Below are positions 1,135 to 17,616 of a stretch of DNA of 20,488 nucleotides, one piece after another. Each line of letters starts with the position of its first letter. Position 1 is the stretch's first letter. The position numbers were made by a program, and so were the translations under genes. A model generated the notes under the pieces. The model did not search any database, was not told where the DNA came from, and worked only from the letters and a program-made list of their open reading frames with translations. The DNA is from Boothiomyces macroporosus (Eukaryota; Chytridiomycota; Chytridiomycetes; Rhizophydiales; Terramycetaceae): positions 1 to 20,488 of the forward strand of contig JADGKB010000178.1 of the NCBI GenBank assembly GCA_027604185.1, read 5' to 3'.

Positions 1135-2169
1135 AAATAGATCTTTATTGATATTGTTGTAATAAAAAACTAAAATTAACGATTGGTACATAATCCGGGC
1201 TATGGTTTTTGCATCGCCTTCCAAAACATCTTTGATCTCAATTCTCTTTGTATTTATTCCCATACTCACTAGTAATTCTATCGCGACTTCTACATTAATC
1301 TGTTTCTGCTCCTCCGAAGGATTCAAAAAGAACTTGTTTAAAGGTACATAAAACCGCCCAATTGACCCAATCAACAGAATCAACTTTCCGCCATCAGCCA
1401 AATCTTTCATACTTTGAATCGCCAATTGGAAATCTTGGAGGATTCCATTAACAAATTCCAATAGTAGCTAGATTAGTTTTAACCAACTATTTCAACTTCA
1501 GCCAACTTTTCCGGATTTTCTATCAGTTCTTCAAAAACCTCTCCAACATCCTTTTCGTCTGGAGGTGCTTCAACAACTGGTTCCTCAGCATAGTTAATCT
1601 CTGCCTCTGTTATTTGAAATTTGTTTGTTTTTGATACTTTTGCTCCTTTCACGATGGTGTTGCATGTAACAGCAAGTTTGACATCTGTTGGGATTGGGAA
1701 TTGGCAATCAAATAATAGTGCCAAATCAACCAAGAATGAAAGCAGAGAAGAATAATCACCCGCAATTATACCTTTGACAGTCCACCTGGAAGAATTATCG
1801 CCCCTAATAAGAAACTTTTCCACAAATTGCACTAATTTTGTCATAATTAGCTGGTAGTCTTTAGCTGTACACGCCATGAATGGTTCTGCGTTAAAACTAC
1901 ATACTTAGGTCTATTATTTCTTCTCCAGTTTTATCCACTAGATCAGCCATCACTTACTGAGAAATGATGCAAGCACAATCGCGAGCACGTAGTCTTTGTA
2001 AATATCGTTAATCACTATATTCGTGGAGTTTGAGTTGAGCCAGAGCGTAAGGGACTAGATTAGAAAGATCCAACTTGAACTAAACGCCGATAATTCGGAT
2101 TGCCTATTATTAGACTATTTTACTCGTAGTGGAAGGGTGGAGCTCATACGTAACCTTTTCCTCCTCCAT
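1114..2169 (-). CDS. Parvin (two CH domains), six exons
   Basis: Exons 5'->3': 2169-2124, 2103-2075, 2054-1958, 1937-1905, 1885-1488, 1467-1114; introns of 20, 20, 20, 19 and 20 nt; 318 aa. Parvins carry two calponin-homology domains and bind integrin-linked kinase and PINCH at adhesion sites linked to actin. The spliced product follows the parvin CH1 pattern: LVQSLTLWLN, then INDIYKDYVLA, GEEIIDL and WTVKGIIAGDYSSLLSFLV. An acidic linker follows, then CH2 with LLEFVNGIL, DLADGGKLILLIG and FYVPLNKFFLNP. Each intron removes a stop or frameshift exactly where the parvin alignment needs continuity. Two donors are GTTGG rather than GTAAG. The start is the first ATG upstream of the CH1 helix, 51 bp from the divergent LRR gene start. 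The 3' end overlaps the preceding gene. The family call comes from motif order, not from a database search. Confidence 0.87.
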
Positions 2170-2220
2170 TGTCGCGGCTTTTATTCTCAAACTTCAACCT
2201 CAAATATTTTTGTTATTTTC

Positions 2221-4002
2221 ATGACAAAGGCGTTGTACAGTTTGCTAGATGAAATGCACCAAACACATAGATCTACGACTGCACTTTTTGTAAAACATAT
2301 GGAGCAGCTCTATGCTTGTGAACAGTTACTTTATGGCGAGGAACGGCTGGTGCTAGATCAAGAAACTTGCACCCCGGTTGCAATAGCCGCTATGACAAAC
2401 AACAAATCAGTTAAAGAGCTGCAGCTGTATTGTGATTGCATAGGGAGAGACGAATTCCCCATGTTTGCGCGGATGCTTCACAGAAATACAACTTTGCAAA
2501 TCCTAGGGTTTGAAGGTACATTTGAATAACATTCAGGGTTTTCCTCTAGCTGCGAACTGCTGCTTAGTGTTGACTGGTCCTTAGTCTCTATTAGAGATCT
2601 TTATATTGTGGGATCGTTTCAAGACAGTGATGGATTGAAACAATTTTTCAAAGCTTTAACTTGCAACAAAACTATCAAGAAACTGTGTATATATGATTGT
2701 GGACTAGAAGATGATATGGCTGAAGATCTGTGTAGAATTATTAGAAATGGAAGTCTTCAGGAGCTGGATTTAACTATCAATAACTTTACAGCAGATGGAA
2801 TTGAGTCAATTGTTGAAGCAATCAAACATTCTAATGTAATAGACTTTGACATATCACATAATCCAATTGGGGATTGTGGAGTTGAGCGGATCTCTGATTT
2901 GTTTACGATGAAAGTGAAAAATCTCAACATTGGGGATATTTCAATCCAGAATGAGAGCTTTGATGTATTTTCCTATTGTTTAGCTCATAGCAGTCATATC
3001 GAGAGCATATTTTTTCAAAAAGTTGAATTTTCGAGCCCAGCAAAGCTTTTCATGGCAGCAAGTATGGCTAAAACTCTGACCAAGCTTTCGTTTATTGATT
3101 GCGCCATTGATTGCTCGAATGTGGTTGAATTGGCCAAACTGGTATCTAGTGGACAGCTGGAATTACTTGATTTAGGGTCGAACAATATCGGAGGCAAAGG
3201 AATGTTGCTGCTTCACAACGCAATCCTAGCAAGCAAACGCATACAGGATTTCACACTATCAGACAATCCCTTGGGACTGGATGGAATCAAATTACTATCA
3301 AATCTTTTGTCAAACGAAAATTGCCCACTAAAATATCTTACGGTAGATGCTCTGCTTGTAGATCAAACTTCCATGGAAATTCTTTCTGCTGGATTGGCTG
3401 TAAACAAGTCACTGATATCCTTTTCAATGGAATATACAGAATTTGACGCGCGATTGTTCAAGTACCTTTTTGCTGCGCTTCATAAAAATAGGCATTTGCA
3501 AGAGCTGTATGTAGATGGACCTAGAATAGACAACTTTCTAGGCAGTGAAGATGAACCTAATGAATATTTTGAATACTTGCAAAGACTTTTTATGAATAAT
3601 AGGTCCATTGTCAAAATGAGCTGCCCAATGATAGCTACAATAGAAGTTCCTATAGTTTTGGCTGGCCTTTTGCACAACTACACTCTAGAATGGCTGGGAA
3701 ATGTCAACGAAGAATATCGTGGAAGTTCTAAAACGCACGGACCTGAAATTGAACATGAAGATATCAAAGAAATTGCAAAACGAAACAAGAGTATCAAGCA
3801 GGTGAAATTAGCTGAATCCGTTCTTGCTTCCAGAGCCCTCTTAATGCTGGAATTGCCTTTGGAACTGCTCCATCTCATTCAAAACTACCTAACTGATTAT
3901 GCCATGATCCCTCTGCATTTAAAGGCTAAATATAGCCGTACATTACTTAAACAAGAACTAATAGGGAAGCTGTTTACAAAAGATAATGTGAATATATTTT
4001 AA
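2221..4002 (+). CDS. RNI-like leucine-rich-repeat protein
   Basis: Exons 2221-2515 and 2537-4002, with a 21-nt intron; 586 aa. Splicing joins LQILGFEG to FSSSCELLLSVDW and removes an in-frame TAA. The body is a series of ribonuclease-inhibitor-type repeats of about 28 residues, for example SLQELDLTINNFTADGIESI and LELLDLGSNNIGGKGMLLL. Such proteins are protein-protein interaction scaffolds. Near the C-terminus LELPLELLHLIQNYLTD resembles an F-box-like or ankyrin-capping helix, but I cannot assign it. The ATG at 2221 was chosen because it is the first Met of the open frame and is preceded by a T-rich stretch; the frame stays open upstream to about 2137 without an ATG. No partner or pathway is visible. 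Confidence 0.85.
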
Positions 4003-4102
4003 TAATTTATTCCAGAGTCAATACAACTTGCACATATCATTAATAACCCGACAATCTTGTCTTTATAGTTTTTGGTTCAATCAACAGTCATCAAACTTTT
4101 GA

Positions 4103-4110
4103 TTACGTAA
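4103..4110. promoter_or_regulatory. TTACGTAA palindrome upstream of MET2
   Basis: A perfect 8-bp palindrome of the C/EBP-PAR bZIP type lies 65 bp upstream of the MET2 start codon. bZIP factors control amino-acid biosynthesis in fungi, so a role in MET2 control is possible. A chance match cannot be excluded from sequence alone. Confidence 0.3.
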
Positions 4111-4174
4111 GCAAGTCCAATGGCGCAATGGTTGATCAACATCACCAAATCAAAAATCAGAAAAAAGTTTACTG

Positions 4175-5472
4175 ATGACAGCAAAAACCAAATATTCGGA
4201 ATTAGTTCAAGGCCAAAGCATAACAACCCTCGACAAATTTGTGTTAGAGTCTGGCAAAGTATTAAAAAATGTTCCAGTGGCTTACAAAACTTGGGGAAAA
4301 TTGAATGCAGAAAAGTCTAATGTTTTGGTATTGTGTCATGCTTTATCTGGATCTTGCGATGTTGAAGATTGGTGGGGACCATTAATTGGACCTGGCCGCA
4401 CTTTTGACACTACTCGATTCTTTATATTCTGTGGAAATGTATTTGGATCTCCTTACGGAACAGCTTCCCCAATTACCATAGATCCAGCGACTAACAAACC
4501 ATACGGACCAAACTTTCCCCAAACCACTATAAGAGACGACGTTAGGGTACACAGGCGCATTCTGGATAGTCTGGGGGTTGAATATGTTCGTTTCGTTATC
4601 GGTGGATCAATGGGTGGAATGCAAGTATTAGAATGGGCATTCTTTGGCGACTATGTAAAGAATATTATTCCGATTGCTACTTCGGGTAGACGTAATTTCT
4701 TTTTTAATGTAGACTCTGCATGGTGTATCAGTTGGGGAGAAGCACAACGCCAATCTATTTACAGTGACCCTAAATATCTAGATGGCACCTATGAAATGTC
4801 TGATCCTCCAGTGTCTGGCTTGAGCGCTGCCAGAATGGCTGCAATGTTGACGTATAGATCTCGCAACTCTTTTGAACAGCGATTCGGACGTAAAGTCATG
4901 CCAACAAAGAGTGTTGATGACCATGAAGAGGTCCATAAACTACAGCACAACGAAGGCAACAAATATAGTTTGCACATTCCTGGCAAAGCAATAGAAAAGA
5001 ACGATAAAGAGTTTTCGGTGTATTCTGCGCAATCGTACCTCAGATATAAAGGAGACGCGTTTGTGAATAGGTTTGATGCAAATTGTTATATTGCAATAAC
5101 AAGAAAATTGGATACACATGATATTTCAAGGGGTAGAGGTAGTTACCAGGAAGCACTTGCGCAAATTCAACAACCTACACTAGTGATTGGTGTAGATAGC
5201 GATGGATTATTCACTGTCGATGAGCAGTATGAATTGGGAAATGGAATTCCAAACTCGCAAGTAGTGATTATACAATCTGGAGAAGGTAATAACAATTAAT
5301 AATAGGTCATGATGGATTCTTGCTTGAATTTCAACAAATGCGAGATTTACTGACTAGTTTCATTAAAGATCGTGCACCTGAATTACTGGAACAAGAGCCA
5401 ATTGAAATTAAAGTGCAAGAATCAAAAGCGAGTGTATTTGGAGAAGCGGAGGGAGATATGTTGATGTGGTAA
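4175..5472 (+). CDS. MET2: Homoserine O-acetyltransferase
   Basis: Exons 4175-4691, 4713-5285 and 5306-5472; introns of 21 and 20 nt; 418 aa. The enzyme transfers acetyl from acetyl-CoA to L-homoserine, the first committed step to methionine/homocysteine by the sulfhydrylation route of fungi and bacteria. It is an alpha/beta hydrolase. Visible are VAYKTWGKLN, HALSGS, DWWGPLIGPGR, the nucleophile motif GGSMGGMQ, SAWCISWGEAQRQSI, GLSAARM, the acid-region VIGVDSDGLF and the catalytic His in GEGHDGFLLEF. The first intron is a multiple of three without a stop, so the unspliced frame looks open; removing it restores TSGRHSAWC. The second intron splits the Gly codon just before the catalytic His. 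An out-of-frame ATG at 4120 could act as an upstream start. Confidence 0.95.
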
Positions 5473-5476
5473 TAAA

Positions 5477-5614
5477 TAAGACTATTCAATTCCGTGAGTT
5501 TGTAAGATTCTATTCTGACTGTTTGTAAGACTATTCAATTCCGTGAGTTTGTAAGATTCTATTCTGACTGTTTCTAAGATTCTATTCTGACTGTTTGTAA
5601 GATTATTCAATTCC
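5477..5614 (+). repeat. Short tandem repeat, 49-bp unit with partial copies
   Basis: Two near-perfect 49-bp copies (5477-5525 and 5526-5574) differ only at the last base. A 23-bp copy of the unit's second half follows (5575-5597), then a 17-bp partial copy of its first half ending about 5614. Within the unit, TAAGA-TTC phrases recur, so it may itself derive from a shorter duplication. It fills most of the gap between the MET2 stop and the next gene. Confidence 0.9.
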
Positions 5615-5644
5615 CTTTTCTAATTTTGTTTTTTCCAAATCAAA

Positions 5645-6422
5645 ATGCAAAAACTAATCTCATGCCAGGATCAGATTCAATGCGCTGATGAAAAGGACGG
5701 AATAATTCTAGTTTCAACAAAGAGCGAACTCCGCATCTACGAAGACAACAAACTAAAAACCTTTTTTAAAACCGGTCAAGAAGCTCTCCAAGTGAAAATC
5801 CATGATTACTACTATGCACTATTCTCTGATAAACTAGTTAAATATGATAACAGCACTTATACAACCGCATTCAATATACAAGCAAATGCATTTGATATTG
5901 ATACTTTTACTGGGTTTATCACAGATACTAGTATTCAAATCTATGATGAAGAATTGATTCTCGAGTATCCAATCAAATACCGCGGAGTAGCAATTAAATT
6001 CAATCCAAATAAGCCAGATCAGTTTATATATGGACTAGTCAACGGCACTATACAAATAATGAACATTAATATGGAAATCGTTCATTCAATCTACTACCCA
6101 GGAATTCTATATTCTCTAGATTGGAATGCTGGATTGATTGGAGTGATTATTGATCAAAAATGGTTGATTTACGACTATAAGCAAAACACACCAATTCACA
6201 GTGATAATATAAATGGAAGTTTGTTTAAATTCAACAAGAACAGAAGTGGAATGTTTTGCATCTTGTCTCCAAACAAACTCTATTTATACAGCTCAGGATA
6301 CACAAGAGGTATTTCATATTAACACAGTGCCAAATACATTTAATGTAAAGAATAGTAAATTCTTGACGTGGGAGAATGAGTTGAAAGTCTGTCATACCCG
6401 CTTTGTTTCTCTTGTTCAATAA
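5645..6422 (+). CDS. Beta-propeller (WD40-like) protein, unassigned
   Basis: Exons 5645-6308 and 6328-6422, with a 19-nt intron; 252 aa. The protein is a run of short beta-strands ending in aromatic-Asp pairs (ELRIYEDNK, KLVKYDN, SIQIYDE, KWLIYDYKQ, KLYLYSSG), a pattern typical of diverged WD40 repeats. The intron joins SSGYTR to VPNTF and removes an in-frame TAA; without it the protein would be 225 aa. The ending KVCHTRFVSLVQ is short for a closed seven-blade propeller, so this may be an incomplete propeller that pairs with a partner, as some nucleoporin-type proteins do. I do not recognise the family. The ATG at 5645 follows an A-rich stretch. Confidence 0.7.
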
Positions 6423-6517
6423 AGCGTTTTTAATTGCCATCTTAAAACCAAAGAATAAATCCTTAATCCAGGCACAATAACGATTAAATCCAATAAGAAT
6501 CCATTATCCAATTACAT

Positions 6518-6704
6518 TTATTTCTTTTGTTCGTTAAATAAGACATGTTGATTCACTAGTGGATCATATTTCATTAATTGCAACTTTGGTAAAGCTCTCT
6601 TTCTTTTAGTGATATAGAAAAATCCTGTTCCAGCAGAAGAAACCAGCCGAACTATAACAGTCCTACATTAATCAAGAGTACTTTGCTTTTTGTTTGACAG
6701 ACAT
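6518..6704 (-). CDS. Mitochondrial ribosomal protein bL33m
   Basis: Exons 6704-6682 and 6662-6518, with a 19-nt intron; 55 aa, the usual length for bacterial-type L33. It is a large-subunit protein of the mitochondrial ribosome. The spliced protein reads [20 protein letters not shown], then [19 protein letters not shown], matching the hallmark AGTGFFY and KYDP-V-HVLF motifs of L33. The N-terminus MSVKQKAK comes from the tiny first exon, and the intron splits a Lys codon. Only 20 bp separate its start codon from that of the divergent SPF27 gene. The N-terminus is basic and may serve for mitochondrial import. Confidence 0.93.
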
Positions 6705-6724
6705 TTTTTCGATTTGAAAAAAAA

Positions 6725-7211
6725 ATGGAATTAGATTCTCTAGTGTACATCGACAACTATGACTTGACTGAAGCGGAAAAGTTGATTAAACGAGAAGCCC
6801 AGGTATCCGCAAACAAATTTCAACTTGAACGACCAGAAAAGACTGATGCGATCGACCTAAAGAGATTCCAACTAAACGAGATCAACTTGGATAATATCAA
6901 AGCCCAGATAGAATACCAGGAAAACAGATCCATCAATTTAGAATTATTTAGTAAATATGGAAACAACCAATGGAAATTACACAATTACCAAATGGAGCAA
7001 ATAAACAAGAATCTGGAAAAGGAACTGGAAACTCTTTTATCTCAAATTGAAAGTGTAAATTTAAAGCGAAAGCAAGAGCAAGTAAGACCAAGTTAATTAG
7101 GAATTTTGTTTTACCAAATTAAAGAATTTGAAAGAGAAACAGAGAGAGCTGATTGATAGGATTGTGCAAGTGAGAATGGCTAACGATCAACTGCAAGCTA
7201 AACTTGAATAA
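6725..7211 (+). CDS. Pre-mRNA-splicing factor SPF27/BCAS2-like
   Basis: Exons 6725-7081 and 7101-7211, with a 19-nt intron; 155 aa. SPF27 is a core subunit of the Prp19 (NineTeen) complex, which activates the spliceosome. Family landmarks are in order: an N-terminal DSLVYIDNYDLT segment (compare the conserved D-LPY-D start), DLKRFQLNE, then RSINLELFSKYGNNQWKLHN, the most conserved block, followed by a coiled coil (QINKNLEKELETLLSQIES, then KLKNLKEKQRELIDRI). The intron restores the coiled coil after QEQ. The protein is shorter than metazoan BCAS2 (about 225 aa), mainly in the N-terminal and C-terminal parts. It shares an ultra-short intergenic region with bL33m. Confidence 0.88.
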
Positions 7212-7377
7212 ATACTGAATTTTGTTATTGATTCAATGTTTTATAATTGACAATGTTGGGATAACAACTTTTCAAAAGTTAATTCGATATCCGATAGCTT
7301 AATACCCGAAAACCTTAATTATATCCCAGATAACCTTATTAGAAACCTGCGGAAAATTCAAATTGTTGACTCACAGA

Positions 7378-7794
7378 ATGGAATCTGAAAAACCATGCAA
7401 TGTATGTACGGATTTTAGAAAGCTACGAAAAAAGAACAAGAAGCTATTAAAAGAGATGCCATGCCCACTCGATAAATCTACACTGGGCAACTACACTTGG
7501 GGATTTCTTCATACAATGGCTGCCTATTATCCAGAAACACCTTCACAAGCAGACCAGCAAATGATGAAGAATTTTATTACTGGATTAGCAAGGTTTTATC
7601 CATGTTCCTATTGTGCTGATCATTTACAAAAAGAAATTGTTTCTAATCCGCCGGATGTAAAGAATAATTATACACTAAGCATGTGGTTTTGTAATATTCA
7701 TAATGAAGTTAATGAGAGGTTGGGTAAACCGATATTTGACTGTTCAAGAGTGTTTGAAAGATGGAGAGACGGAAACAAGAACTGTTTTGAATAA
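7378..7794 (+). CDS. ERV1: FAD-linked sulfhydryl oxidase Erv1/ALR
   Basis: 138 aa, no intron. Erv1 works with Mia40 in the mitochondrial intermembrane space, reoxidising Mia40 and passing electrons to cytochrome c or oxygen. Family motifs appear in order: CNVC at the N-terminus, CPLDKSTLGNYTWGFLHTMAAYYP (FAD-binding), the active-site YPCSYCADHL (CxxC), the FAD-contacting NxHNxVN motif seen as CNIHNEVNERLGKP, and the C-terminal FDCSRVFERWRDG. The start at 7378 is the first ATG of the frame. The N-terminal shuttle segment is short compared with yeast Erv1. Upstream, 7212-7377 is AT-rich with no feature I can identify. Confidence 0.96.
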   Translation: MESEKPCNVCTDFRKLRKKNKKLLKEMPCPLDKSTLGNYTWGFLHTMAAYYPETPSQADQQMMKNFITGLARFYPCSYCADHLQKEIVSNPPDVKNNYTLSMWFCNIHNEVNERLGKPIFDCSRVFERWRDGNKNCFE

Positions 7795-7930
7795 ATTATA
7801 GGCATTTCATTATTTGCAAGTATTTTCTGGACAAGTGATTCCAAATGGTGTTCTTGATGTTAATTCCTAAACGAGAGTGGGTCAGAGGTACCGCCCCTTT
7901 CGTGAATTGTTTGTTTATTTTTTTCATAGA

Positions 7931-9201
7931 ATGGGTAAGCTGATTTACCTTGAAGCTATCAGAGGGCTGGCAGCACTCATAGTTGCTCTCCACCACTTTG
8001 ATTTAGCACTAACAGAAAAGAACAACTACCTCTATCAGTTGAAAAACGAATATCCGATACTCAAATTTTTGACAGATGGAAACTTGGCAGTAACAACATT
8101 CTTTATATTATCCGGAAGAGTATTAACACTGTCGTTCTTGAAGAGAGAACTGTCCCTGCAGTCTTTTGAAAATTTATCTTCAGGTGTCTTCAAGCGAAGT
8201 TTCAGATTGGTTCTGCCTGTGCTTGCTGTTCTCTTTATTTCGCAACTGCTTGGATATTTCCATTTACATGATAGCGTTAGAGTTGCCAACGGTATTGCTG
8301 GTACTACTGGATGGTACCAACCACCGACAGAGTTTCAGTCATTCAAGGAGTTTGTGGTGTTCTTTATCAACATATTTACAAACACTTTCTATGTACCAAA
8401 CAACGGCTACTTTCCTTTTGAAATAAGTAATGATAGATTAACTTAGTGTGGACTATACCCTTGGAATTGTATGGCAGTTGGGTAATGTACTTGGTTGCTA
8501 TTGTTACCGTGACTTTATCTTTTAGGATTCTATTTCTTACCATTCTAGTATTACTAAATTGGTACTCTGGGACTTGGTCTTTTGCCTTTATTTTAGGAAT
8601 GTTGATTACAGAACTGTCAGTTCAAGGACATATTAAAAAGATGCAACCGTCTTATTTTTGGGCGTTTAGAGTACTGCTATTTGTATTCTTTTACATTTCT
8701 TACCAGCAGTGCTATGTTGGAGGTGAAACTTGGGGATATCTCTTTTACAAGTACAGTAGAGATCTCTATCAAACGTCCTCAGGAAGTATAAACAACCCAG
8801 GTGATTTATGGTACCAGCCGCAAGACCCTAGGATATTCATGGCTGCATGTATGATTATGCTTGTTGAACTGACACCAACTATGCAAACAATACTAAACAC
8901 GATGATATTTGATTTCTTGGGAAAGATCTCATTTGGATTATACTTGGCGCATGGTGTAGTTTTATCTGCTGTAGTTTCCAAAGTATTTGTTGCCTTAGTG
9001 TCATCAGGACGTTCTATCGAATTTGCTCAAACTGTATCCTTTTTTGTGTTTTGGGCAGTGTCTATTACTTGCGGATGGCTGATTTTCAAGTATATTGATA
9101 TGCCATCAGTCAGATTATCGAAACGATTACGAGCGCTGTTTATTCGCAGAGTCCCTGCACCATTAGAACAAATTGTAGTTCCTACTAATTTACCCGAATA
9201 A
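7931..9201 (+). CDS. Acyltransferase-3 (OafA/YrhL type) membrane protein
   Basis: Exons 7931-8426 and 8447-9201, with a 20-nt intron; 416 aa. Family members are multi-pass membrane enzymes that transfer acetyl or other acyl groups to sugars or lipids. The protein starts with the family signature YLEAIRGLAALIVALHHF, including the conserved Arg and His. Then come FILSGRVLTLSF, GYFPFEI joined by splicing to MWTIPLELYGSWVMYL, many hydrophobic helices, and the late motif FDFLGKISFGLYLAHGVVL. The intron removes an in-frame TAG and splits a Met codon. The substrate is unknown. A 21-nt GT...AG string right after the ATG (7935-7955) is not an intron, since it encodes part of the signature. Confidence 0.92.
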
Positions 9202-9577
9202 TAAAACGTTTTTGAACTACAAAGTTTTGGAATGGCTTTATCATTGATTTTTTATTGTTGAAGGGTCAATAATGAGGTTTTGTAAGATCCCACTGAAAAT
9301 ACACTATTTCCATTTTGGCTGATTCAAGAGGTAAAACCACTCAAGTAATAGTGTCTACCCATTTACCAACGATTTCTTTAACCTCGCAGAAGATAATCGA
9401 TGGTGCTGCGGTTATGTGCTAGCAAAGGAAACAGGAAATTGACGGCACCATATTTAGATTTCTTCCGTTCAATGACTTGAAAATGTTTCAAACAACTCTT
9501 TGCTGAGTCGATTATCAAAAGTTACACAAAGTGACTCTGCTGAACACGTCATGTTAGTCATTTGAACTTTTTTTTCA
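9202..9577. other. Intergenic region upstream of U2 snRNA
   Basis: No gene could be supported. On the plus strand an exon-like run (about 9308-9480) would read ISLTSQKIIDGAAVMK then LTAPYLDFFRSMT if 21-nt and 19-nt GT-AG segments were removed, but no start exon was found. The opposite strand also has exon-like stretches here, so neither is convincing. It may be partly U2 promoter. Confidence 0.35.
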
Positions 9578-9585
9578 TATAAATA
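9578..9585 (+). promoter_or_regulatory. TATA box of the U2 snRNA gene
   Basis: TATAAATA lies 27 bp before the inferred U2 5' end, the normal spacing for a TATA element. A run of eight or more T residues lies just upstream. Confidence 0.6.
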
Positions 9586-9604
9586 CCAAACATTTTCACA
9601 CAGG

Positions 9605-9791
9605 ATTTATCTTCTCAGCCCTATTGGCTAAGATCAAGTGTAGTATCTGTTCTTTTCAGTGTGACTTCTGAAATTCTACCCTAAGGTAGATAAGTCAAAC
9701 TAATTTTTGTTATTAAGTGAATTGGATGGTGCATGCATCATCAAAGTCACACAGGTTTCCTCTGTATCGCACTATATCAGAGTGAAGCCTA
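9605..9791 (+). ncRNA. U2 spliceosomal snRNA
   Basis: U2 snRNA pairs with the intron branch site and with U6 in the spliceosome. The core TTGGCTAAGATCAAGTGTAG and the following TATCTGTTCTTTTCAG are near-identical to yeast and animal U2. The branch-recognition GTAGTA is at 9640-9645. Stem I is TCTCAGCC/GGCTAAGA. Stem IIa is TTTCAG/CTGAAA (9654-9673). Stem IIb is TCTACC-CTAA-GGTAGA (9675-9690). The Sm site AATTTTTG is at 9702-9709. A stem-III-like hairpin GATG...CATC spans 9725-9742. Stem IV runs from 9753 to 9790 with a CTCTG/CAGAG tip and loop TATCGCACTATAT, resembling the U2B''-binding loop. The length of about 187 nt is close to human U2. The 5' and 3' ends are estimates. Confidence 0.95.
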
Positions 9792-9955
9792 TATATTTGA
9801 TTAAAATGAAATATTTTCTTTGGTTTGAAAGCAAACACTAACAATCAAGCGATTCAGTTAAAACTCAGACTGCATATTGAGTGCATAGGTGGATCAAAAA
9901 TTGTCAATTTCCTATGAATGCTCAACAATCAGCATAATTACAGAAAATAAATATA

Positions 9956-12121
9956 TTAAAAAACGAGAGGATTGATTTCAAAGGATAAATCAACTTTATC
10001 TTTACGGATGGTAAAGGTCTTTTCCTCTTCATCTACATTAGAAAATAACTTACTAATTAGGTAGGGTTTAGGTAACGGCTTTGGTCTCCTCGTCTTTCTT
10101 TTTGGCTTTTGCAAAGTCCCTGTTTTATTTACAGTTTTTGTAAGAGTTACAGATTTGTTTCCCATCTTTGTCAATGTTCCATTCCTGGGACCAGTTTTGG
10201 TTAAAGTGCCAGATTTACCAACAATCTTTTCCTTTTTATCAATACTGTAGACTTTTTTCTGTGGAGGATGGATTGATATTGTGCTAGGTTTAGGTGGCAA
10301 ATCTGGCTTTGGAGGCTTGGTTTTAACTCTTCGAGCTGTTCTTGGTGGAGGTACTGGCCCACTCTCTTCAGGAGACGTGATTGCATATTCCAAGAGACCA
10401 AATGCTTTATCCATAATATAGCCAAGATTTGCAGACGGTTTATGTACAGTGTCGCATTCGGTTATATTATGTCGACTCTTTTCAACTATATTTGACTTTG
10501 GCTTTTCTTGAATTTGCATATTATCTAGCCCATCAAGTAAATCGCCAAAACCATTCCGGTTGATTTCATTATTCCACATCTTTTGTGATGGGCTGAGACA
10601 TTCGTCAAGTATTACAGATTGTTCTGCAAGGTTTCTATACCTATCTTCTGCACCAGTGTATTCATTTGGCTGCATAACAATCTTTCTTGGTTGAGGTTTT
10701 ACGACACTTGGTGCTGGTTCACTATTTCTTCTTTTCTGGGGTGGTTCAATTGGCCTCATATCAGTTTCTTCCCAAGGCAGTCTTCTCGCAGCATTACGAT
10801 CGAGAGATCTGAAATTGTCAGAAGCATTAAAATTGAACTCCTCGTACTCGTCAATACCACACAAAGGAGGTAAAACTGGGGCTTTTGGAGGGTTTAAAGA
10901 AGCAGGATGGCATACTTTCAACGGAAATTCAATGTTTAAATCCTTGGCAAATAGTCCTGGCATCGACAACCCGACGACTACCCTGCACACTAGTTCTGAC
11001 AAACTGGTTTTGCGAATGGTATAGAAATCGGTCTATGTTAGTAAATATTACTGGAACTGTCAGATGCAAGGTAGTGCGGCGAACCTCATTTGGCTCAAAG
11101 TAATAATTCTTGTCATTGAAATTAAGCGTTTTGACATTAAGATATTTCACTTTGATTTCGTCATTCTCTTTTCCACTTTCAATTGCAGGGCAGATCATCA
11201 GCAGTTTCTTCATAAAAGATACTTTGACTCCCGATACCTACATTAGTTTGTTTCTACTTTTCTTTTTGTGTTGTTGGTTACTTTAATTTCAATTGAAATT
11301 GTGTTTCCAGATGATACAAATGAATTAAGCAAACAGCCTTCGAGATGGACTACGCCAGGTCCTCCCATGAATACAGGCTTTGAGTTTACTGCAGTAACTG
11401 AAGTATCCAAGCTTTTCTCTAACGCAAGATCCCATTGATCAACTACAGTGGCATGCTTTGTAATAAAAGCGGTATCGGTTTGATCTCCATATTTAAAAGA
11501 GACTAATCTAACTGTTAGTATGTCAAGTACCCGGTCACAGAGTAGATCAGCCTCGAACAGTTTGCAACTTCAAATGAAGCAGGAACATCCTTTGGCAGTT
11601 CAAACGAAAACTCGAAAATCTAGGATTAATTATAGATACTGTCTTTCCTTTAATAGCAGAATAATAACCGCCTTCTCTAATTGGACCGCTTACAGCTTGA
11701 GACGGTGGACAGCGGTCTCCTTGGTACATTATTTTTGATTTCAAGAACGACTGACTTTGTTTAAAGCTTGGACGCAATATTTCTGATTTAAACCCCAAAT
11801 ACCTTCTATTCCATTTAACTGAACAGAGATTTCACCCAAAAGCAAGTATTTGCTAGTACTTGAAACTACTTCCAGTCTTCCGTTAATAGATCCTCCAGCT
11901 ACGTGCAAAGAAGAGTCAAAAACAACGTTGATTTTAAGTTTCGAACACTTTCCTGAAGTCGATGGTATAGGATTAAATTTTACATTTGAAGTAGGTTGAA
12001 TAGGATCATTGTGCAACAACGGTGGCAAACGCGGGAGTGAAGATGTTTGAGAATAGTCTGAAAACGGTGAGGTTGATCTCGATTTATCTATTATTGTACA
12101 GGTATTGTTTTGAGTATCCAT
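9956..12121 (-). CDS. Arrestin-domain (ART-like) adaptor with basic, proline-rich repeat tail
   Basis: Exons 5'->3': 12121-11803, 11782-11640, 11619-11531, 11507-11258, 11237-11052, 11032-9956; introns of 20, 20, 23, 20 and 19 nt; 687 aa. Arrestin-fold proteins are cargo adaptors, often linking membrane proteins to ubiquitin ligases. After a Ser/Pro-rich N-terminus comes the arrestin-N pattern: VAGGSINGRLEVVSSTSKYL, ISVQLNGIEE, then FEFSFELPKDVPASFEVANC. Arrestin-C follows: GNTISIEIKVTNNTKRKVSG, EVRRTTLHLTVPTDFYTI, LSELVCRVVVGLSMPG and LNIEFPLKVCHP. The long tail is disordered with PxxP motifs (PVPPPR, KPPKPDLPPKP, KPLPKP) and four 10-residue repeats. I see no PPxY motif, so a link to a Rsp5/Nedd4 ligase is not shown. 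The 23-nt intron contains an earlier AG at 19 nt that would give a stop. Confidence 0.87.
10094..10213 (-). repeat. Four coding tandem repeats of 30 bp in the arrestin tail
   Basis: The decoded repeats are SGTLTKTGPR, NGTLTKMGNK, SVTLTKTVNK and TGTLQKPKRK. The core (G/V)TL(T/Q)K recurs every 10 residues. The repeat is basic and Thr-rich, suggesting a disordered segment that could be phosphorylated or bind acidic partners. The DNA copies are diverged, so the array is not recent. Confidence 0.8.
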
Positions 12122-12433
12122 ATTCAGTTTGATCAATATTAAAATAATTAACACGGGTTTTAATATATGGTTTGTCCCTGCGCATGTCTCTCCCCTCGCA
12201 CAAAAGATGGAGAATCTACCAAAGAGCAAACACCAAAGAATTATCAATTGCCAATGGATATTCCAATCCGCAATTACGAGATAAGCAATAACTTGCCATT
12301 CCAGACATGCCAAATCGTTTTCAAAGTAACCAAGAGTTTAAATTTGACAAAAATGTCTGTTACGTGTCACCCAGTATATATACACCTATCTATGACTCGA
12401 ACATAAAGAGTCATCAATTAAATAAAATCCGAT
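12122..12433. other. Gap between arrestin start and FYV7 end, gene content unclear
   Basis: This should hold the arrestin promoter; TATATATA occurs at about 12376. On the plus strand an ORF starting at 12167 can be extended by removing a 20-nt GT-AG segment (12316-12335) to read LPFQTCQI then FKFDKNVCYVSPSIYTPIY, but I recognise no family and its end would run into FYV7. A perfect inverted repeat ATGACTC/GAGTCAT (12392-12398 and 12408-12414) could form a small hairpin. Confidence 0.35.
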
Positions 12434-13005
12434 TTATTCTTTATTCTTTTTTATCTTATCAAGCAGGTGATTGATTACATTTGACATTACAGGCTGCCCC
12501 TTTTTTGTTTTCTTGGATAACTTTGCATGGATTTCCGTCCGCTAATGTTACGATATATTACCTTTTCCCTACTCTGCTTTAATTTCTCTTGTTTCTCTTC
12601 CTTTTGCTTTAAAATTTCCTTTGATTAACCCTAATGTACCTAGGGTTACCTTTAATTACATTTCGCTTGGCAGTTTTCTCATTCTTTTTGTCAGTGATTG
12701 CTTTCTGCGCTTTGGCGAATGGATTGACTTTTCTACTGTTAATTGAAATTTACTTTTTCTGGACAACCTGATTAGACTGCTTGCTACCTTCTAGGGTTAG
12801 AGTATAGTACTTTTTCACTCTATGATTAATATCAATTACCGGTGTGGTATCTAGTCCCTCTTCCTTGAGCAATTTTGATAAATTCTTTTTCATCTTATAC
12901 CTGCGCTGCATTTCCTGCTCCTTGGCTTTCTTTCTCGCTGTAATTAGAACGAATCCTGCCTGCAATTGCCTCTGTCGAATTCCCAAATTGTTTCTTTTCC
13001 TTCAT
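12434..13005 (-). CDS. FYV7: rRNA-processing protein FYV7 (CCDC59/TAP26 family)
   Basis: Exons 5'->3': 13005-12960, 12937-12754, 12735-12660, 12618-12562, 12541-12434; 156 aa. Fyv7 is a small basic nucleolar protein needed for 18S rRNA processing. Diagnostic segments are NLSKLLKEEGLDTTP (compare the LK-EG motif), KVNPFAKAQKA, the long charged helix EILKQKEEKQEKLKQSREKR, and the C-terminal KKTKKGQPVMSNVINHLLDK, matching the conserved GQP-M-----LLDKI ending. Introns 2 to 4 are 18, 41 and 20 nt. The first is uncertain: a 22-nt GC-AG intron (12938-12959) or a 13-nt GT-AG one both restore the frame. The 41-nt intron could be two abutting introns. The start codon is 18 bp from that of VFA1. Confidence 0.86.
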
Positions 13006-13023
13006 AATATTTTTTGTCAAAAA

Positions 13024-13427
13024 ATGCAAGTTGTGTACGAAAAAAAGATTGGTTTGGTTTGATTAATTCCAGCAACTAGAGAAGGACTGTGTTTTGTATG
13101 CAATAAATTCTCTACATGCGTCTTGAAATCTGCCAACGACTGGTTCTATGTATGTGTGAATCACCTATCAGATCGCTCATTTTGCAAACCCCAGATAGAG
13201 CCTCAGCCAGAGAAAGCAGAAATAAAACCGGAACCGAATTCAAAGGAGGAAAAGGATGTAAAGCCAGTGCCAGCACCAGAACCAACCAAATTCGTTTTGG
13301 CTTCAAACTTTACATGTATGATGGGCTAACAATAGATTTACGGGAATCTCAGCAAAAACAAAAGCAGCGCGCTACTGCTACGAAAAATATTCAATTCCCT
13401 AGTGTCCCTAATAGTAAAATATTGTAG
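13024..13427 (+). CDS. VFA1: VPS4-associated protein Vfa1
   Basis: Exons 13024-13051, 13073-13315, 13336-13427; introns of 21 and 20 nt; 120 aa. Vfa1 binds the ESCRT ATPase Vps4 at endosomes and regulates it. The N-terminal zinc-binding region is seen as EGLCFVCNKFSTCVLKSAND followed by WFYVCVNHLSDRSFCKP, with the Cys/His spacing of the family. A Pro/Glu-rich linker follows, then the C-terminal NFTYLRESQQKQKQRA helix and FPSVPNSK, matching the family's FPSVP ending, a likely Vps4-MIT-binding tail. The first intron removes an in-frame TGA; the second removes a TAA. The protein is shorter than yeast Vfa1 in the linker. Confidence 0.9.
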
Positions 13428-13488
13428 TTTGTATTCCTTTTTTAATTTTCGCCACGCCTTGTTTTTTTGATTGCTTTCACTAACACAA

Positions 13489-14765
13489 ATGGCAGATTAT
13501 CGCAAGGAAGTGATGGAATTGGCTCAACTGCCAGAAAACAAAGTCTGTATCGATTGCGGTAATATACATTAATACTAGGAGCCCATACACCTCAAGTATT
13601 TGGAGTTAATTGTAGTGGGCAAGTGTAACATTTGGAACGTTCTTTTGCTTGGAGTGTTCAGGAGTGCATCGCAGTCTAGTAATCAATATTCTTATAACAA
13701 GGGAGTTCACATTACTTTTGTGAGATCAGTAACAATGGATAAGTGGTCGGATGTTCAAGCAAAGAGGATGCAGCTGGGTGGTAATAAGAATGCTCTGGAA
13801 TTTTTCAAATCACATCCTGGTAAACGATTTCTCACAAAGATTACCGTGAAAAGATGAGTATTCCTGAAAAATATAATTCAGAATTCGCGATATTTTACAA
13901 GGAAAAGGTACAGTTGATGATTGAATTTAGCTGACTGCGTTATGTAACGGAGAGGAATGGACCATGCCGCCGATTGGATCAAAAAGACCTTCAGTTACGC
14001 CATCATCAACCCCATCCACTACACAATATTCCCTCCCAACAAAGGAACAAAATGAAACTTATTTTGCTGTATAGTATAGCTAATGCCAGGCTAAAGGAGA
14101 AGAGAATAGAAACAGGCCCGACAGTTTACCTCCAAGTGCGGGTGGGAAATACGGAGGATTTGGAAATTCATATGAGCCTCCAAAGAAAGAACTCAATCCA
14201 CTAGACGATCCAGTGGCTACATTATCCAAAGGTTGGAGCATGTTTTCTTCATTTGCAGTCCAAGGTGCTAAGCTTGCTGTGAGTGGAGCAGAAACTCTTG
14301 GCAAGACTGTAACTGAACAAGTAATTCATTTTAATTCAGGTCATCAAGCCTACTACTGCAGCTGTCAGAGATCCAGAATTCAACAACAATATATCATCCT
14401 ATGTCAGTACAATCGGCCAGAAATTTACTGAAGTAGGATCAAAAGGGCTGGCTATTGCAAGTGAAACTGCTGCCAAAGGATTTGATCTTGCCCAAAACGT
14501 AACCAAACAAACAATTTCCCAGGTAAATGGATACTCTGCTGTTCCTCACGATCAGTATGAAGAAAGAGGTGCCAACGATGCTTATGATCCTTGGACACCC
14601 AAAGAAAAGAAATCAGAGCCAAAATCAGAATGGGACGACTGGGACAAACCGTCATATGAAAATGTTGAACCAACCCCAGCCAAAGAATTCACCCAAGAGC
14701 CAGCAAGAGTTGTAAACGTGCAGCACCCAGCTCCAAAGGCTACAGATGAATGGGAAGATTTTTGA
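13489..14765 (+). CDS. GCS1: ArfGAP1/Gcs1-type Arf GTPase-activating protein
   Basis: Exons 13489-13558, 13579-13595, 13616-13678, 13702-13819, 13840-13907, 13931-14068, 14090-14320, 14340-14765; introns of 20, 20, 23, 20, 23, 21 and 19 nt; 376 aa. It stimulates GTP hydrolysis by Arf1 in COPI transport at the Golgi. The ArfGAP zinc finger CIDC-x16-CLEC is complete after splicing, followed by SGVHRSLGVHITFVRSVTMD with the arginine finger in HRSLG, MQLGGNKNALEFF and LTALCNGEEW. Further on, YGGFGNSY, DPVATLSKGWSMF and an amphipathic, Ser/Thr-rich stretch resemble the curvature-sensing ALPS region of ArfGAP1. The C-terminus WDDWDK...EWEDF is the aromatic-acidic type that binds coatomer. Exon 2 is only 17 nt. 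Confidence 0.95.
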
Positions 14766-14786
14766 ATAAAAACAATTGTAAAAACT

Positions 14787-15110
14787 TTATTCCGAGTGAA
14801 CCCTATCTCCACCAATATGATATTCTTTAACGTCCAAGGTCTTGTCGAAATACCCAAGCGGACCTAAATCACAATCCGCACAAATCAAATACTGTATTCC
14901 AGCTTCATTAATATTTGAAAAGCCAATATTTTCAAAGGTCATCATGTTCTGAACTGTCCAGTAAAATTCTGGGACTTGATCTTGATCGTTTGCTTTTAGG
15001 ATACTCTTTAGCGGTACTGTTTGAACTGTTCGCTGCGCTGTATTTTGCAGCAGTATTACACATTTGCATCTGGGACAGGATATTTTCGGGTTTTGACGAC
15101 CATCAGTCAT
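14787..15110 (-). CDS. DSS4: Mss4/RABIF guanine-nucleotide-exchange-factor-like protein
   Basis: 107 aa, no intron. Mss4/Dss4 is a zinc protein that binds nucleotide-free exocytic Rab GTPases (Sec4, Rab8) as a chaperone or slow exchange factor. Two zinc-binding CxxC pairs are seen, SCPRCKC and LICADCDLGPLGYF, together with the Rab-contact block WTVQNMMTFENIGFSN. The start is the ATG encoding MTDGRQ at 15110; the frame extends five codons further but without an ATG. The stop is 21 bp from the stop of the convergent ArfGAP gene, and AATAAA-type signals of both strands overlap there. The SDR gene ends only 23 bp upstream on the same strand. Confidence 0.93.
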   Translation of the reverse strand: MTDGRQNPKISCPRCKCVILLQNTAQRTVQTVPLKSILKANDQDQVPEFYWTVQNMMTFENIGFSNINEAGIQYLICADCDLGPLGYFDKTLDVKEYHIGGDRVHSE

Positions 15111-15133
15111 TTTTAATTTTGGCAAGTTTTTTA

Positions 15134-15838
15134 TTACCAGTTTTCGGTTGATGGACGCAAGACCAATTCAAAAGTCCAGGTAGGTTTAGGCTGTCTATGG
15201 AGTTGAACATAATTCCAAGCGACTGCGTCAGGTTGAATGTAGTCGTCTGGATTGATGCTCCTTTTCCAGGCTCTTCCTTTGTCACTGTCAACGACACCAT
15301 CAATAATAACATGAGACACATGAACACCTTTTGGGCCGAATTCTCGCGCTAATGTTTCTGCTAATGCTCTGGTCGCAAACTTTGGAACAGCCAATGGTGC
15401 GAATCTGGCTGCTCCTCGTAGCGAAGCAGTAGCGCCTGTAATAATAACCGTACCTTTTTGTCGCTCTAGCATTCCTGGTAAAAGGTTTTGCAGCAAATGA
15501 ACAGTGCCGATTGTCTGCAAGTTGAAGGCTGCTTGCAGATCAACAGGATTGATTTCCAAGAACGGTTTCGGTGAAAATGCAGCACCTGCATTCATAACCG
15601 TAACTTCAACTGGCGGCAAATCTTTGATAATCTGTTGAGTAACGCTTTTAATGCTAGATTCGTTTGAAAGATCACAAGCAATCGCAGTTGCGTTTCCAAT
15701 CTCGTTTTGTACTTGATCAAGATACGCTTGGTTACGGGCTAGTAATGCAACATGATATCCCTCATTTGCGAACGCTTTGGCCAAAGAGAAACCTATCCCT
15801 GGCCCGACACCAGCAATTACCGCAGTTCGGAGAGCCAT
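15134..15838 (-). CDS. Short-chain dehydrogenase/reductase-fold protein with altered active site
   Basis: 234 aa, no intron. The Rossmann cofactor motif is AGVGPGIGFSLA (TGxxxGIG type), with DLSNE and NAGAAFSP (NNAG type) following, and the catalytic-region Ser in ITGATASLRG. The usual YxxxK is LAVPK in the block GAARFAPLAVPKFATRALAE: Lys is kept but Tyr is Leu. A known SDR subgroup with -FA-F--AKFGLR- and HVVIDG segments has the same loss, and here HVSHVIIDGVVDSD fits it. The substrate is unknown. Absence of introns in a gene-dense, intron-rich region and the bacterial-like subgroup would be compatible with transfer, but this is inference. Its start codon is 38 bp from that of the divergent DnaJ gene. 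Confidence 0.9.
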   Translation of the reverse strand: MALRTAVIAGVGPGIGFSLAKAFANEGYHVALLARNQAYLDQVQNEIGNATAIACDLSNESSIKSVTQQIIKDLPPVEVTVMNAGAAFSPKPFLEINPVDLQAAFNLQTIGTVHLLQNLLPGMLERQKGTVIITGATASLRGAARFAPLAVPKFATRALAETLAREFGPKGVHVSHVIIDGVVDSDKGRAWKRSINPDDYIQPDAVAWNYVQLHRQPKPTWTFELVLRPSTENW

Positions 15839-15876
15839 CTCAAGTCAAAAATTGCGGCTGAAAAACTTTTTGAAAA

Positions 15877-17195
15877 ATGTCCACTCCAAGCTATTACGAA
15901 GCACTGGGAGTAAATAGAGATGCAACCCAGGAAGAAATTAAAAAGGGATACAGAAAAATGGCTTTGAAATATCATCCGGACAAAGCAGGAACAAATGAAG
16001 AAGCAGCAGCCAAATTCGAACTGGTTGCAAAAGCTTATGACACTCTCAGTAACGAAAACACTAGAAAGATATATGACCAATATGTAAGTTGTATTAACAA
16101 TAGGGTGAGCGAGGGTTAGAAATGATGAAGCAAATGGGAGATATTACCATAATTCAGGAAGCGCTATTGAAGGCGAACCAGTATCTTATTGGACTAGGTG
16201 TGGTTACAGCATTACTGATTGTATTCCATTCTTTCCTGGTTGTGCGCATCGACGGAAAGACTTTATGGCCTTACTTTACTGTATTTATTCCATTGTTTAT
16301 CATTGATATCATGGCACTGGTTTATGTGGCAAGGGATATTGCTGCTGGAAAAGATGACCAAGATCCTGAAAGTTTGTCGGAAGAGGAAAAGAAAACCATT
16401 GCTGCCGTCAAACGCATGATATTGGTGTTCTTTTTTTTAGCGACTGCATTCCAAATTCTATTGTGCTTACAATTAGACGGTGTTACAACCATGTCCTGGT
16501 GGATAGTTTTTATTCCATGGTTCGTCATCGAAGCTGCCTTGCTAGTTCAAAAGTTCTTGATGACTGTAACGCAATGTATGGAACCAGTTTATGACACGGA
16601 GCCGCAAGAAGGGCTAGAACCGGTGCCTAGAAACTTGACTGTACTTGAAATTATTTTAGTGACATTCAGCAACTTTTACTTTTATGCAGTTAGATTGACT
16701 CAGATTGTTTTAATTATTCTTAAATTGAACGGGATGGCATCTGACTGGAGGCTAGTATTCTTCCCATCGTGGATTCTTGGGTTTTTGATGGCATTGCGCC
16801 TAGTTTTTGATACTTTACGGGTGAAATATGCAAAAACAGTCAAACCTGAAAATACTGGAAAAGTCATTTTTGATTGGATCGTATTTGTAATATGGGCAAT
16901 ACTATTCTACACCTTCATGGCTCTGCTGGTTTCAAGACTCACTAATGAAAATGGATCTCCAACTGCAGGAGTAATCTTTATTCCTATTTTCATTATCCTG
17001 GCTCTTTTGCAATGTTGTTTCTCTTGCTGCCTCCCATGTATGCTCCAAGGCGCAAAGATGGAATTTGAAAACCAAATGAGTATGGCACCCGATGAAGTTC
17101 AGCCAGAAGATGAAATGATTATTGCAATTGACAAAAGAATTGAAGAATCTGCAGTTCCGTCTTCATCTCTACAAACAATACAAGCATCAAGATAA
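15877..17195 (+). CDS. DnaJ (J-domain) protein fused to TMEM185-like membrane domain
   Basis: Exons 15877-16083 and 16104-17195, with a 20-nt intron; 432 aa. Residues 4-69 form a J domain with [20 protein letters not shown] and HPD in KYHPDKAG; J domains stimulate Hsp70 ATPase. Splicing joins IYDQY to GERGLEMM, as expected at the J-domain end. The rest has about seven hydrophobic helices in repeats of the form L(D/N)G...W...[40 protein letters not shown] and [18 protein letters not shown]. This is the pattern of the TMEM185/Fragile-X-F transmembrane family. The protein is probably in the ER or another endomembrane, with the J domain recruiting Hsp70. A Cys-rich segment ([14 protein letters not shown]) near the C-terminus may be lipidated. 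Confidence 0.9.
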
Positions 17196-17219
17196 AATCA
17201 ATAAATATTTTATACATAA

Positions 17220-17616
17220 TTATTGCGCTTTTGTAGGAGCACCTTGCTCTTCCTTGAAATTAATCCTTCGCTTCTGCTCTGTTTCAATAGTCAACTCTAC
17301 GACCAATTGCCAATCATCGTGATACCCTTCTGACATTAACTTTGATTACCCTTGATACATCTCTTGAATTCTTTTAATGCGCGCTCAGTTTCTCCCAAAT
17401 TCAAGTAACAATATCCAAGTAAATGCCTTCCAATGATTGTAGCGCCAGGTAACAACACATATTGCTGCAAACAAACCAAAGCTCTTGAAAACGAACCCAG
17501 TTGGTAAAAGTCTTTTGCAACCTTTGTTACAGCTGTCTTACTTGGTATACGTCAAACGCTTCTGGAGTGCGGTTTAACCTCTTTTGAAACCAGAGGTAGA
17601 TTTCCTCTTTTGACAT
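17220..17616 (-). CDS. TPR-repeat protein, unassigned; may start upstream at 17655
   Basis: Exons 17616-17542, 17521-17350, 17329-17220; introns of 20 and 20 nt; 118 aa from ATG 17616. An in-frame ATG at 17655 would add 13 residues (MNIFTDYETFKTT), and the frame stays open further upstream as LLQERLKFCEFFCLRE, so more N-terminal exons may exist. Two TPR-type helical pairs are visible: FYQLGSFSRALVCLQQYVLL and GRHLLGYCYLNLGETERALKEF. These mediate protein contacts. The C-terminus is charged (EQKRRINFKEEQ). The stop is 24 bp from the convergent DnaJ-fusion gene. The family is unrecognised. Confidence 0.75.

Follow-up and report, generated by a model that had tools for sequence, protein, structure and literature searches.

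The DNA considered here, hereafter the window, is the whole of contig JADGKB010000178.1 (C178) of the chytrid fungus Boothiomyces macroporosus. The window is 20,488 bases long and belongs to a genome of 15.2 Mb in 216 contigs. Twelve of its genes are interrupted by 34 very short introns: five of 19 nucleotides (nt), eighteen of 20 nt, seven of 21 nt, one of 22 nt and three of 23 nt. Taking the evidence as a whole, it is highly likely that these are U2-type introns, shrunk genome-wide to 19–23 nt; duplicated trains of such introns are probably removed unit by unit. A preliminary description of the window had listed 33 introns in 13 genes, 17 of them exactly 20 nt long. Our recount changes these totals; the outermost introns, 1468–1487 and 17522–17541, agree exactly. 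Introns were placed by a gene model and manual checks. For nine of the 34 the placement was manual and did not come from the model (three 5′ introns of a parvin-like gene, one in a beta-propeller-like gene, three in Fyv7 and two in Vfa1). All have GT-AG ends except 12938–12959, which is GC-AG. Each of the 12 spliced coding sequences has a length divisible by three and no internal stop codon. The preliminary description likewise gave almost all ends as GT-AG and all coding lengths as divisible by three.

The ArfGAP gene, on the forward strand, contains seven introns. Five of them (13559–13578, 20 nt; 13596–13615, 20 nt; 13679–13701, 23 nt; 13820–13839, 20 nt; 13908–13930, 23 nt) fall in a region of 120 residues where the spliced protein aligns without gaps to the solved ArfGAP1 chain 3dwd. 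A Terramyces record is without five residues at 13679–13701, and one Kappamyces record breaks off at 13908–13930. The sixth and seventh introns, 14069–14089 (21 nt) and 14321–14339 (19 nt), are at sites that are gap-free in seven and eight of eight relatives respectively. The Pfam ArfGap score is 122.4 bits for the spliced protein versus 17.9 and 39.5 bits for the two unspliced pieces. Hence, splicing does complete ArfGAP, as first proposed. The exon between the first two introns, 13579–13595, is 17 nt long, and exon definition is therefore unlikely there. The protein is 88% identical to that of Terramyces sp. JEL0728. An alternative parse of 14321–14361 as a pair of introns was rejected; the second half is coding.

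The MET2 gene (homoserine O-acetyltransferase, forward strand) has two introns. Splicing of the second, 5286–5305 (20 nt), yields SGEGHDGFLLE, which is common to four of five relatives. The GEGHDGF motif is thus restored, as had been claimed. The first, 4692–4712 (21 nt), was found by the model. It is in frame and stop-free, and would be invisible to any frame argument; what points to an intron is absence from relatives, since its seven residues are missing in 5/5 aligned chytrid proteins. The window MET2 protein is 94% identical to that of Boothiomyces sp. JEL0866 and 69% identical to those of Kappamyces and Globomyces. The fifth relative, P0002 of Kappamyces sp. JEL0829, has eight extra residues at the 5286–5305 site. 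These are possibly a retained 24-nt intron, in which case tiny introns reach another genus of the Rhizophydiales.

At other sites a family match spans the junction. Pfam matches over the cut-off cross the 19-nt intron 7082–7100 of a BCAS2/SPF27-like gene (BCAS2, residues 26–154), the 20-nt intron 8427–8446 of an acyltransferase-3 gene (Acyl_transf_3, residues 5–378) and the hand-placed 21-nt intron 13052–13072 of Vfa1 (Vfa1, residues 6–73), all on the forward strand. In the DnaJ/TMEM185-like gene, a 20-nt forward-strand intron just behind the J domain (16084–16103), found also without any motif, joins a DnaJ match (residues 5–67) in frame to a Tmemb_185A match (residues 116–282). Splicing had been thought to restore the end of the J domain. 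This is not so; the DnaJ match is already complete at residue 67 and the intron falls at 69. The spliced product of the Fyv7/rRNA_processing gene, on the reverse strand, matches PF08524 over residues 2–153 of 155, across five introns of which two are back to back. In order of transcription these are 12938–12959 (22 nt, the GC-AG intron; hand-placed, with the match spanning the junction), 12733–12753 (21 nt; splice model and Pfam), 12640–12659 (20 nt; model, hand check and Pfam), 12619–12639 (21 nt; hand-placed, the model having ended the gene here) and 12542–12561 (20 nt; hand-placed, inside the match). The third and fourth are the two units of the pair, have a zero-length exon between them, and are spanned by the PF08524 match.

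The same kind of intron is found across the genome. Our sample comprised the window and 24 stretches of 10 kb (260,488 bases, 1.7% of the genome). Segments of the form GTA...CTAAY..AG peak in this sample at 19, 20 and 21 nt, with counts of 35, 31 and 15 versus 14, 5 and 6 in reversed sequence. We also threaded reading frames with a model that used no motif and a flat length prior, at two penalties (stiff and softer) and with ten decoy boundary pairs. This gave 37 (stiff) and 73 (softer) GT-AG introns of 18–23 nt, whereas the decoys gave 2–7 and 4–12. There was no GT-AG excess at 30–120 nt in the same model (29 and 68, versus 35–43 and 93–123 for decoys), and GC-AG boundaries alone showed no excess over decoys. 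A model with a learned motif and length distribution placed 301 introns. Of these, 296 were 18–24 nt long, with a mode of 20 nt (73 of 19 nt, 127 of 20 nt, 65 of 21 nt and 24 of 22 nt). Between 18 and 23 nt there were 295 introns versus 20, 31 and 12 for three decoys. Among the 301 introns there are three places with zero-length exons, six such exons in all. When GC donors were allowed the model placed 306 introns, 302 of them 18–24 nt long and six of them GC-AG. Some 300 introns in 260 kb would scale to about 17,000 per genome. The claim of genome-wide use is thus borne out by the frame-restoring scan of the 25 stretches, in which decoy boundaries gave few introns.

Two further readings from the sample were set aside. 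A 38-nt intron of a gamma-glutamyltransferase gene was rejected; by alignment to the E. coli-type chain it consists of six coding residues and a 20-nt GC-AG intron. Retention would bring in an in-frame stop for 60/65 introns of 21 nt, 33/73 of 19 nt and 80/127 of 20 nt, figures that are biased because the model sees stop-free 21-nt introns poorly. The stops in 21-nt introns may possibly stem from selection through mRNA decay; given the bias, selection is not claimed.

The 296 introns share one anatomy. The donor is GTAATT, with A at +3 in 92%, A at +4 in 61%, G at +5 in just 18% and T at +6 in 61%. The branch motif YTAAY was recovered by expectation maximisation without a position prior. Counted from the donor G, position 14 holds the branch A in 121 introns, position 15 in 128 and position 16 in 18, together 267/296, and the A lies 5–7 nt ahead of the intron end in 255/296. 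Donor and branch point are thus 13–14 nt apart, and not about 10 nt as initially described. The branch A is also at position 14 or 15 in 113 of the 125 introns of 18–23 nt that were found motif-free in a search restricted to 15–30 nt. Hence, the spacing is not built in by the motif. We looked for two classes of 5′ splice site, as an association between G at exon position −1 and G at +5, and found none among the 296 introns (Fisher p 0.55).

YTAAY is complementary to the intact branch-recognition GTGTAGTA of a U2 small nuclear RNA (snRNA) gene that lies in the window itself (9607–9797, forward strand; Rfam RF00004, 135.4 bits, E 6e-28). In the genome, U6 (62.2 bits) and U4 (58 bits) both exceed their Rfam gathering scores, and U6 carries ACAGAGA (read on the reverse strand). 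U1 scores 68.8 bits, just under the gathering score of 69.5, and has the canonical ATACTTACCTG start. Genes for SF1, Slu7 and Prp18 are over the cut-off, and a U2AF2-like gene gives 230.7 bits on part of the model, under the whole-protein cut-off of 310. With these factors present, extreme shortness needs neither endosymbiosis nor the loss of such factors. A METTL16-like gene is also over the cut-off. Its family gives matches in bacteria as well, and the name METTL16 is to be taken as provisional. The preference for A at +4 occurs here together with a METTL16-type gene, an association reported for yeasts (PMC10581693).

We consider it virtually certain that the tiny introns of the window and the genome are real. 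The intron ends, the branch motif, the U2, U4, U6 and near-threshold U1 genes and the restored proteins mark them as spliceosomal introns whose size approaches the lower limit, and the likeness to Stentor and nucleomorphs drawn in the preliminary description is fair. The genome is a draft, and assembly indels or pseudogene frameshifts might be suspected instead. Such errors would have had to make 296 segments alike in length, donor, branch and acceptor, which the decoy boundaries are not, and to place in MET2 an in-frame 21-nt segment that all five aligned relatives lack. This origin is extremely improbable. Excision at the DNA level, as of the internal eliminated sequences of ciliates, and ribosomal bypassing both take out short non-coding pieces too. 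However, the segments have GT/GC-AG ends and a U2-complementary branch motif, and this is a fungal genome with snRNA genes. We give either process almost no credence.

Some observations weigh against splicing of tiny introns as set out above. Gaps near the sites of tiny introns occur in three records of ArfGAP relatives: VHRSL is missing from Terramyces P0121, and two Kappamyces records lack the N-terminus, one of them also being without a stretch after FYKEK. Our reading is that these gaps are annotation faults. U5 was not found in the genome by the Rfam model, which does not imply its absence. Loss of Slu7 and Prp18, which Stentor would lead one to expect and which was considered as a companion of the short branch–acceptor distance, is refuted, both genes being present. 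Lastly, four of the 306 model introns exceed 24 nt; one is within a train, and those of 50, 54 and 90 nt are unexplained.

Trains are runs of two to at least eight complete introns of ~20 nt, joined AG|GT (or AG|GC) with zero-length exons. They occur in PWWP, MATH, POB3, UBC, TOP1 and PEX1 genes, with three or four units in the MATH, POB3, UBC-fold, TOP1 and PEX1 genes, and there is one pair in the window (12619–12659). The preliminary description made no mention of trains, and the window pair 12640–12659 plus 12619–12639 is now added. In locus L018, a PWWP/TFIIS-helical-bundle gene has 162 nt between the codons for WWPAK and those for IENEQ (C42:22430–22591; 2430–2591 in the locus). This interval is made of eight consecutive units of 19–21 nt with nothing in between, each beginning with GT or GC, carrying a branch-like motif and ending in AG. 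In the joined protein a PWWP match crosses the site with 72.1 bits, versus 30.8 bits for the unspliced piece. The Terramyces protein reads WWPAKVETEQ at this site, uninterrupted. It is uninterrupted too at a second L018 site (2919–2960), where there is a pair of 21-nt GC-AG units. Further trains lie in L041 (C90), L042 (C113) and L054/L057 (C24), those on C90 and C113 being the trains of the MATH and POB3 genes. The C24 train is the longest; eight units in a row, including a repeated two-intron dimer, are followed by an unparsed stretch.

Chains of at least three units, sought by motif, occurred in none of five shuffles nor in the reversed sample. Genome-wide, two patterns that each need a pair of AG|GT joins in succession made 33 and 21 matches versus 1 and 3 for the reversed patterns. 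These 54 matches, which merge into 44 places, are not a count of trains, since the patterns catch single introns by coincidence too. Nineteen of the 44 places were examined in sequence: 16 were chosen, non-randomly, for strong or overlapping matches and three are in the sample (C42, C80 and the window). After coding pieces had been trimmed away, at least three units were left at 14 places (L053 being weak) and two units at L055 and L056. L047 is not clear, and at two places there is no train: C80:17962 is a single intron, and window 7312–7341 is in no gene model.

Among ten joined pieces, six have a Pfam match over the cut-off across the joined site (PWWP, MATH_2, POB3_N, UQ_con, Topoisom_I_N and PEX-1N); the other four have no Pfam match over the cut-off. 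One predicted unit in TOP1 (L046) is coding by its Pfam match, and three units are counted there. One predicted unit in TOP2 (L055) was likewise taken as coding, so that two units are counted; the Pfam match is below the cut-off in this case and the call leans on a presumed protein motif. A sequence model built from three joined introns (R1) performed weakly. At E values up to 5 it made 15 matches in the sample, of which three fell in the L018 train; the best had E 0.044. There is very little doubt that trains are real structures. One pattern match is identical at C10:146344 and C10:200000, and another is identical at C1:393038 and C173:12120. Segmental duplication, or haplotypes left uncollapsed, would probably account for both cases.

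In L052, two 19-nt units have the same sequence and a third closely resembles them, and L045 has two near-identical neighbouring units. Hence, units arise by tandem duplication. The mean similarity score is 12.0 for 44 adjacent pairs of units and 10.6 for 50 non-adjacent pairs, a few coding pieces still being included. It is 11.4, with a maximum of 17, for 3000 random pairs of introns drawn from the sample; these pairs are also what was compared with regard to introners, which are introns that occur as near-identical dispersed copies. Three of the 44 adjacent pairs lie above the 99th percentile of random. Independent insertion would be expected to produce ~0.45 adjacent pairs (302 introns in 203,788 coding bases) versus the 11 joins observed, which are at five places (L011, L018 twice, L025 and the window). 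Diverged units keep donor, branch and acceptor, which argues for selection on each unit and thus for use of each unit. Since the units keep their signals, and the joins far exceed independent insertion, serial removal is favoured. The spliceosome would probably work with a hard size ceiling of about 19–24 nt.

Alternatively, the tiny introns are real but each train is a single long intron of about 40–170 nt, spliced in one step, its internal AG|GT joins being functionless relics of duplication. Every train does open with a donor and close with an acceptor, recent duplicates exist, and three model introns of 50–90 nt are unexplained. However, relics should have lost GT/GC, branch and AG, yet units diverged to random level keep them. 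Splicing in one step would also need donor–branch distances several-fold the near-fixed 14–16 nt, and single introns show no excess at 30–120 nt. We regard this alternative as unlikely.

Removal unit by unit, which we prefer, has points to answer. Any given train could be removed whole, by a single splicing event between its outermost donor and acceptor. Two-unit chains at the loosest threshold numbered 19 in real sequence versus 36 in reversed sequence and 7.2 per shuffle; at a further loose threshold there were six in each of the real and reversed sequences, whereas the strictest gave four real and none reversed or shuffled. At loose thresholds pairs thus do not outnumber those in reversed sequence, and they are credited only with protein support. 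In the C24 train (L057/L054), the eighth unit is separated from the final three by a 44-nt piece that cannot be divided into two standard units; its arrangement could conceivably be nested.

From the lengths, motifs, spacing, machinery genes, restored proteins, trains and recent duplicates found in this genome we infer RNA splicing of this kind, with a size ceiling and one-by-one removal. In splicing, the donor is bound first by U1 and later by U6, and the branch motif base-pairs to U2. Here, recognition would be by intron definition, with U1 then U6 on the GTAATT donor and U2 on YTAAY. Donor, branch and acceptor would be held in one fixed frame with little slack. With a frame that takes only about 19–24 nt, simple lengthening would not be open to an intron. 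Duplicating a whole intron in tandem would be tolerated, because every copy is a complete intron, and would generate trains of two to at least eight units with AG|GT joins. Each unit would then be removed by its own splicing event. Any order would be possible, since removing one unit restores the donor or acceptor at the join. Judging from sequence, we lean towards a modular, length-quantised intron system that grows only in whole units, each spliced separately.

Several published systems can be compared. In Stentor coeruleus the introns measure 15–16 nt and position 10 or 11 holds the branch A; all snRNAs are reported present, and neither Slu7 nor Prp18 was found (PMC9505925). The likeness lies in genome-wide tiny U2-type introns with a nearly fixed branch A. 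Here, in contrast, the introns are 19–23 nt, the branch A is at 14–16, and Slu7 and Prp18 are present. Mikrocytids have 16–17-nt introns, and the parasite Mikrocytos has 224 introns and a reduced spliceosome (PMC10245619). These introns are likewise uniform and tiny, with conserved sequence, whereas Boothiomyces has about 300 in 260 kb and retains the protein factors searched for. The chlorarachniophyte nucleomorph, with introns of 18–21 nt (as described in PMC10245619), is closest in length, but it is a relic endosymbiont nucleus and not a fungal genome. The introns described here are slightly longer than in all three cases and have a similarly narrow length range.

For trains, there are two comparisons. 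Long introns of Drosophila undergo recursive splicing at ratchet points (PMC8605326). As there, acceptor and donor are juxtaposed around a zero-length exon, in our case at AG|GT or AG|GC joins known from DNA. The ratchets lie within long introns, whereas here each step would be a complete intron of ~20 nt, up to eight or more in a row. Stwintrons are nested twin introns of fungi that require consecutive splicing (PMC9024468, PMC12403724). They too are complex fungal introns removed consecutively, as trains are predicted to be. In a stwintron one intron splits the signal of another, whereas the parsed units of a train are side by side and each is complete. Among the titles and abstract openings of the literature matches listed, neither tiny chytrid introns nor tandem trains with zero-length exons are described.

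Tiny introns were previously known from ciliates, nucleomorphs and reduced parasites; the present case is a chytrid fungus. If the spliceosome removes only units of ~20 nt, a longer interruption must consist of whole units, and trains allow a direct test of how short and how long introns can be. The two identical adjacent 19-nt units catch intron gain by tandem duplication almost in progress. There are also consequences for annotation. Gene predictors may misread genes with tiny introns, and the Kappamyces and Terramyces records look faulty at such sites. Two protein records, MET2 of Boothiomyces and PWWP of Terramyces, read as though tiny introns had been spliced. Hence, either the gene callers met tiny introns or those genes are without them. 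Record P0241 of Terramyces sp. JEL0728 (608 residues) contains both PWWP and PF01328, which in L018 were modelled as separate neighbouring genes. This record looks like a gene-caller fusion.

The remaining window introns lie in six genes. Frame and motif are the main support for those of the leucine-rich-repeat, beta-propeller-like and TPR-like genes, the 5′ parvin introns, the second Vfa1 intron and two arrestin introns. The arrestin-like gene, on the reverse strand, has six introns placed by the splice model. Two lie within an Arrestin_C match (residues 249–372, over the cut-off): 11033–11051 (19 nt) and 11238–11257 (20 nt), for the latter of which one model run preferred a 44-nt version with the same acceptor. 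Two 20-nt introns, 11620–11639 and 11783–11802, lie within an Arrestin_N match (residues 72–183) that is just below the cut-off. The others are 10033–10053 (21 nt) and 11508–11530 (23 nt).

The parvin-like gene, also on the reverse strand, has five introns. The junction of 1468–1487 (20 nt; splice model) is inside a CH domain aligned to the alpha-parvin chain 2vzc, and 1886–1904 (19 nt) was placed by frame and site match. The three 5′ introns, 1938–1957, 2055–2074 and 2104–2123 (20 nt each), were hand-placed by frame, with no family match here. Splicing had been said to complete the parvin CH domains. The second does align to alpha-parvin; its Pfam score is only 18.4 bits, versus a cut-off of 26, and the first has no Pfam match.

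On the forward strand, the leucine-rich-repeat gene has a 21-nt intron at 2516–2536, placed by frame and recovered also without any motif. The beta-propeller-like gene has a 19-nt intron at 6309–6327, missed by the gene model, for which frame and site were identified by eye and then checked. The second Vfa1 intron, 13316–13335 (20 nt), was hand-placed by frame. The TPR-like gene, on the reverse strand, has 20-nt introns at 17330–17349 and 17522–17541, both from the splice model; its TPR matches are weak and mostly below the cut-off. Elsewhere in the window, a stretch of ~50 nt is tandemly repeated behind MET2 (about 5470–5600, by eye). The open reading frame at 19067–20110 is without introns and may encode a DDE transposase.

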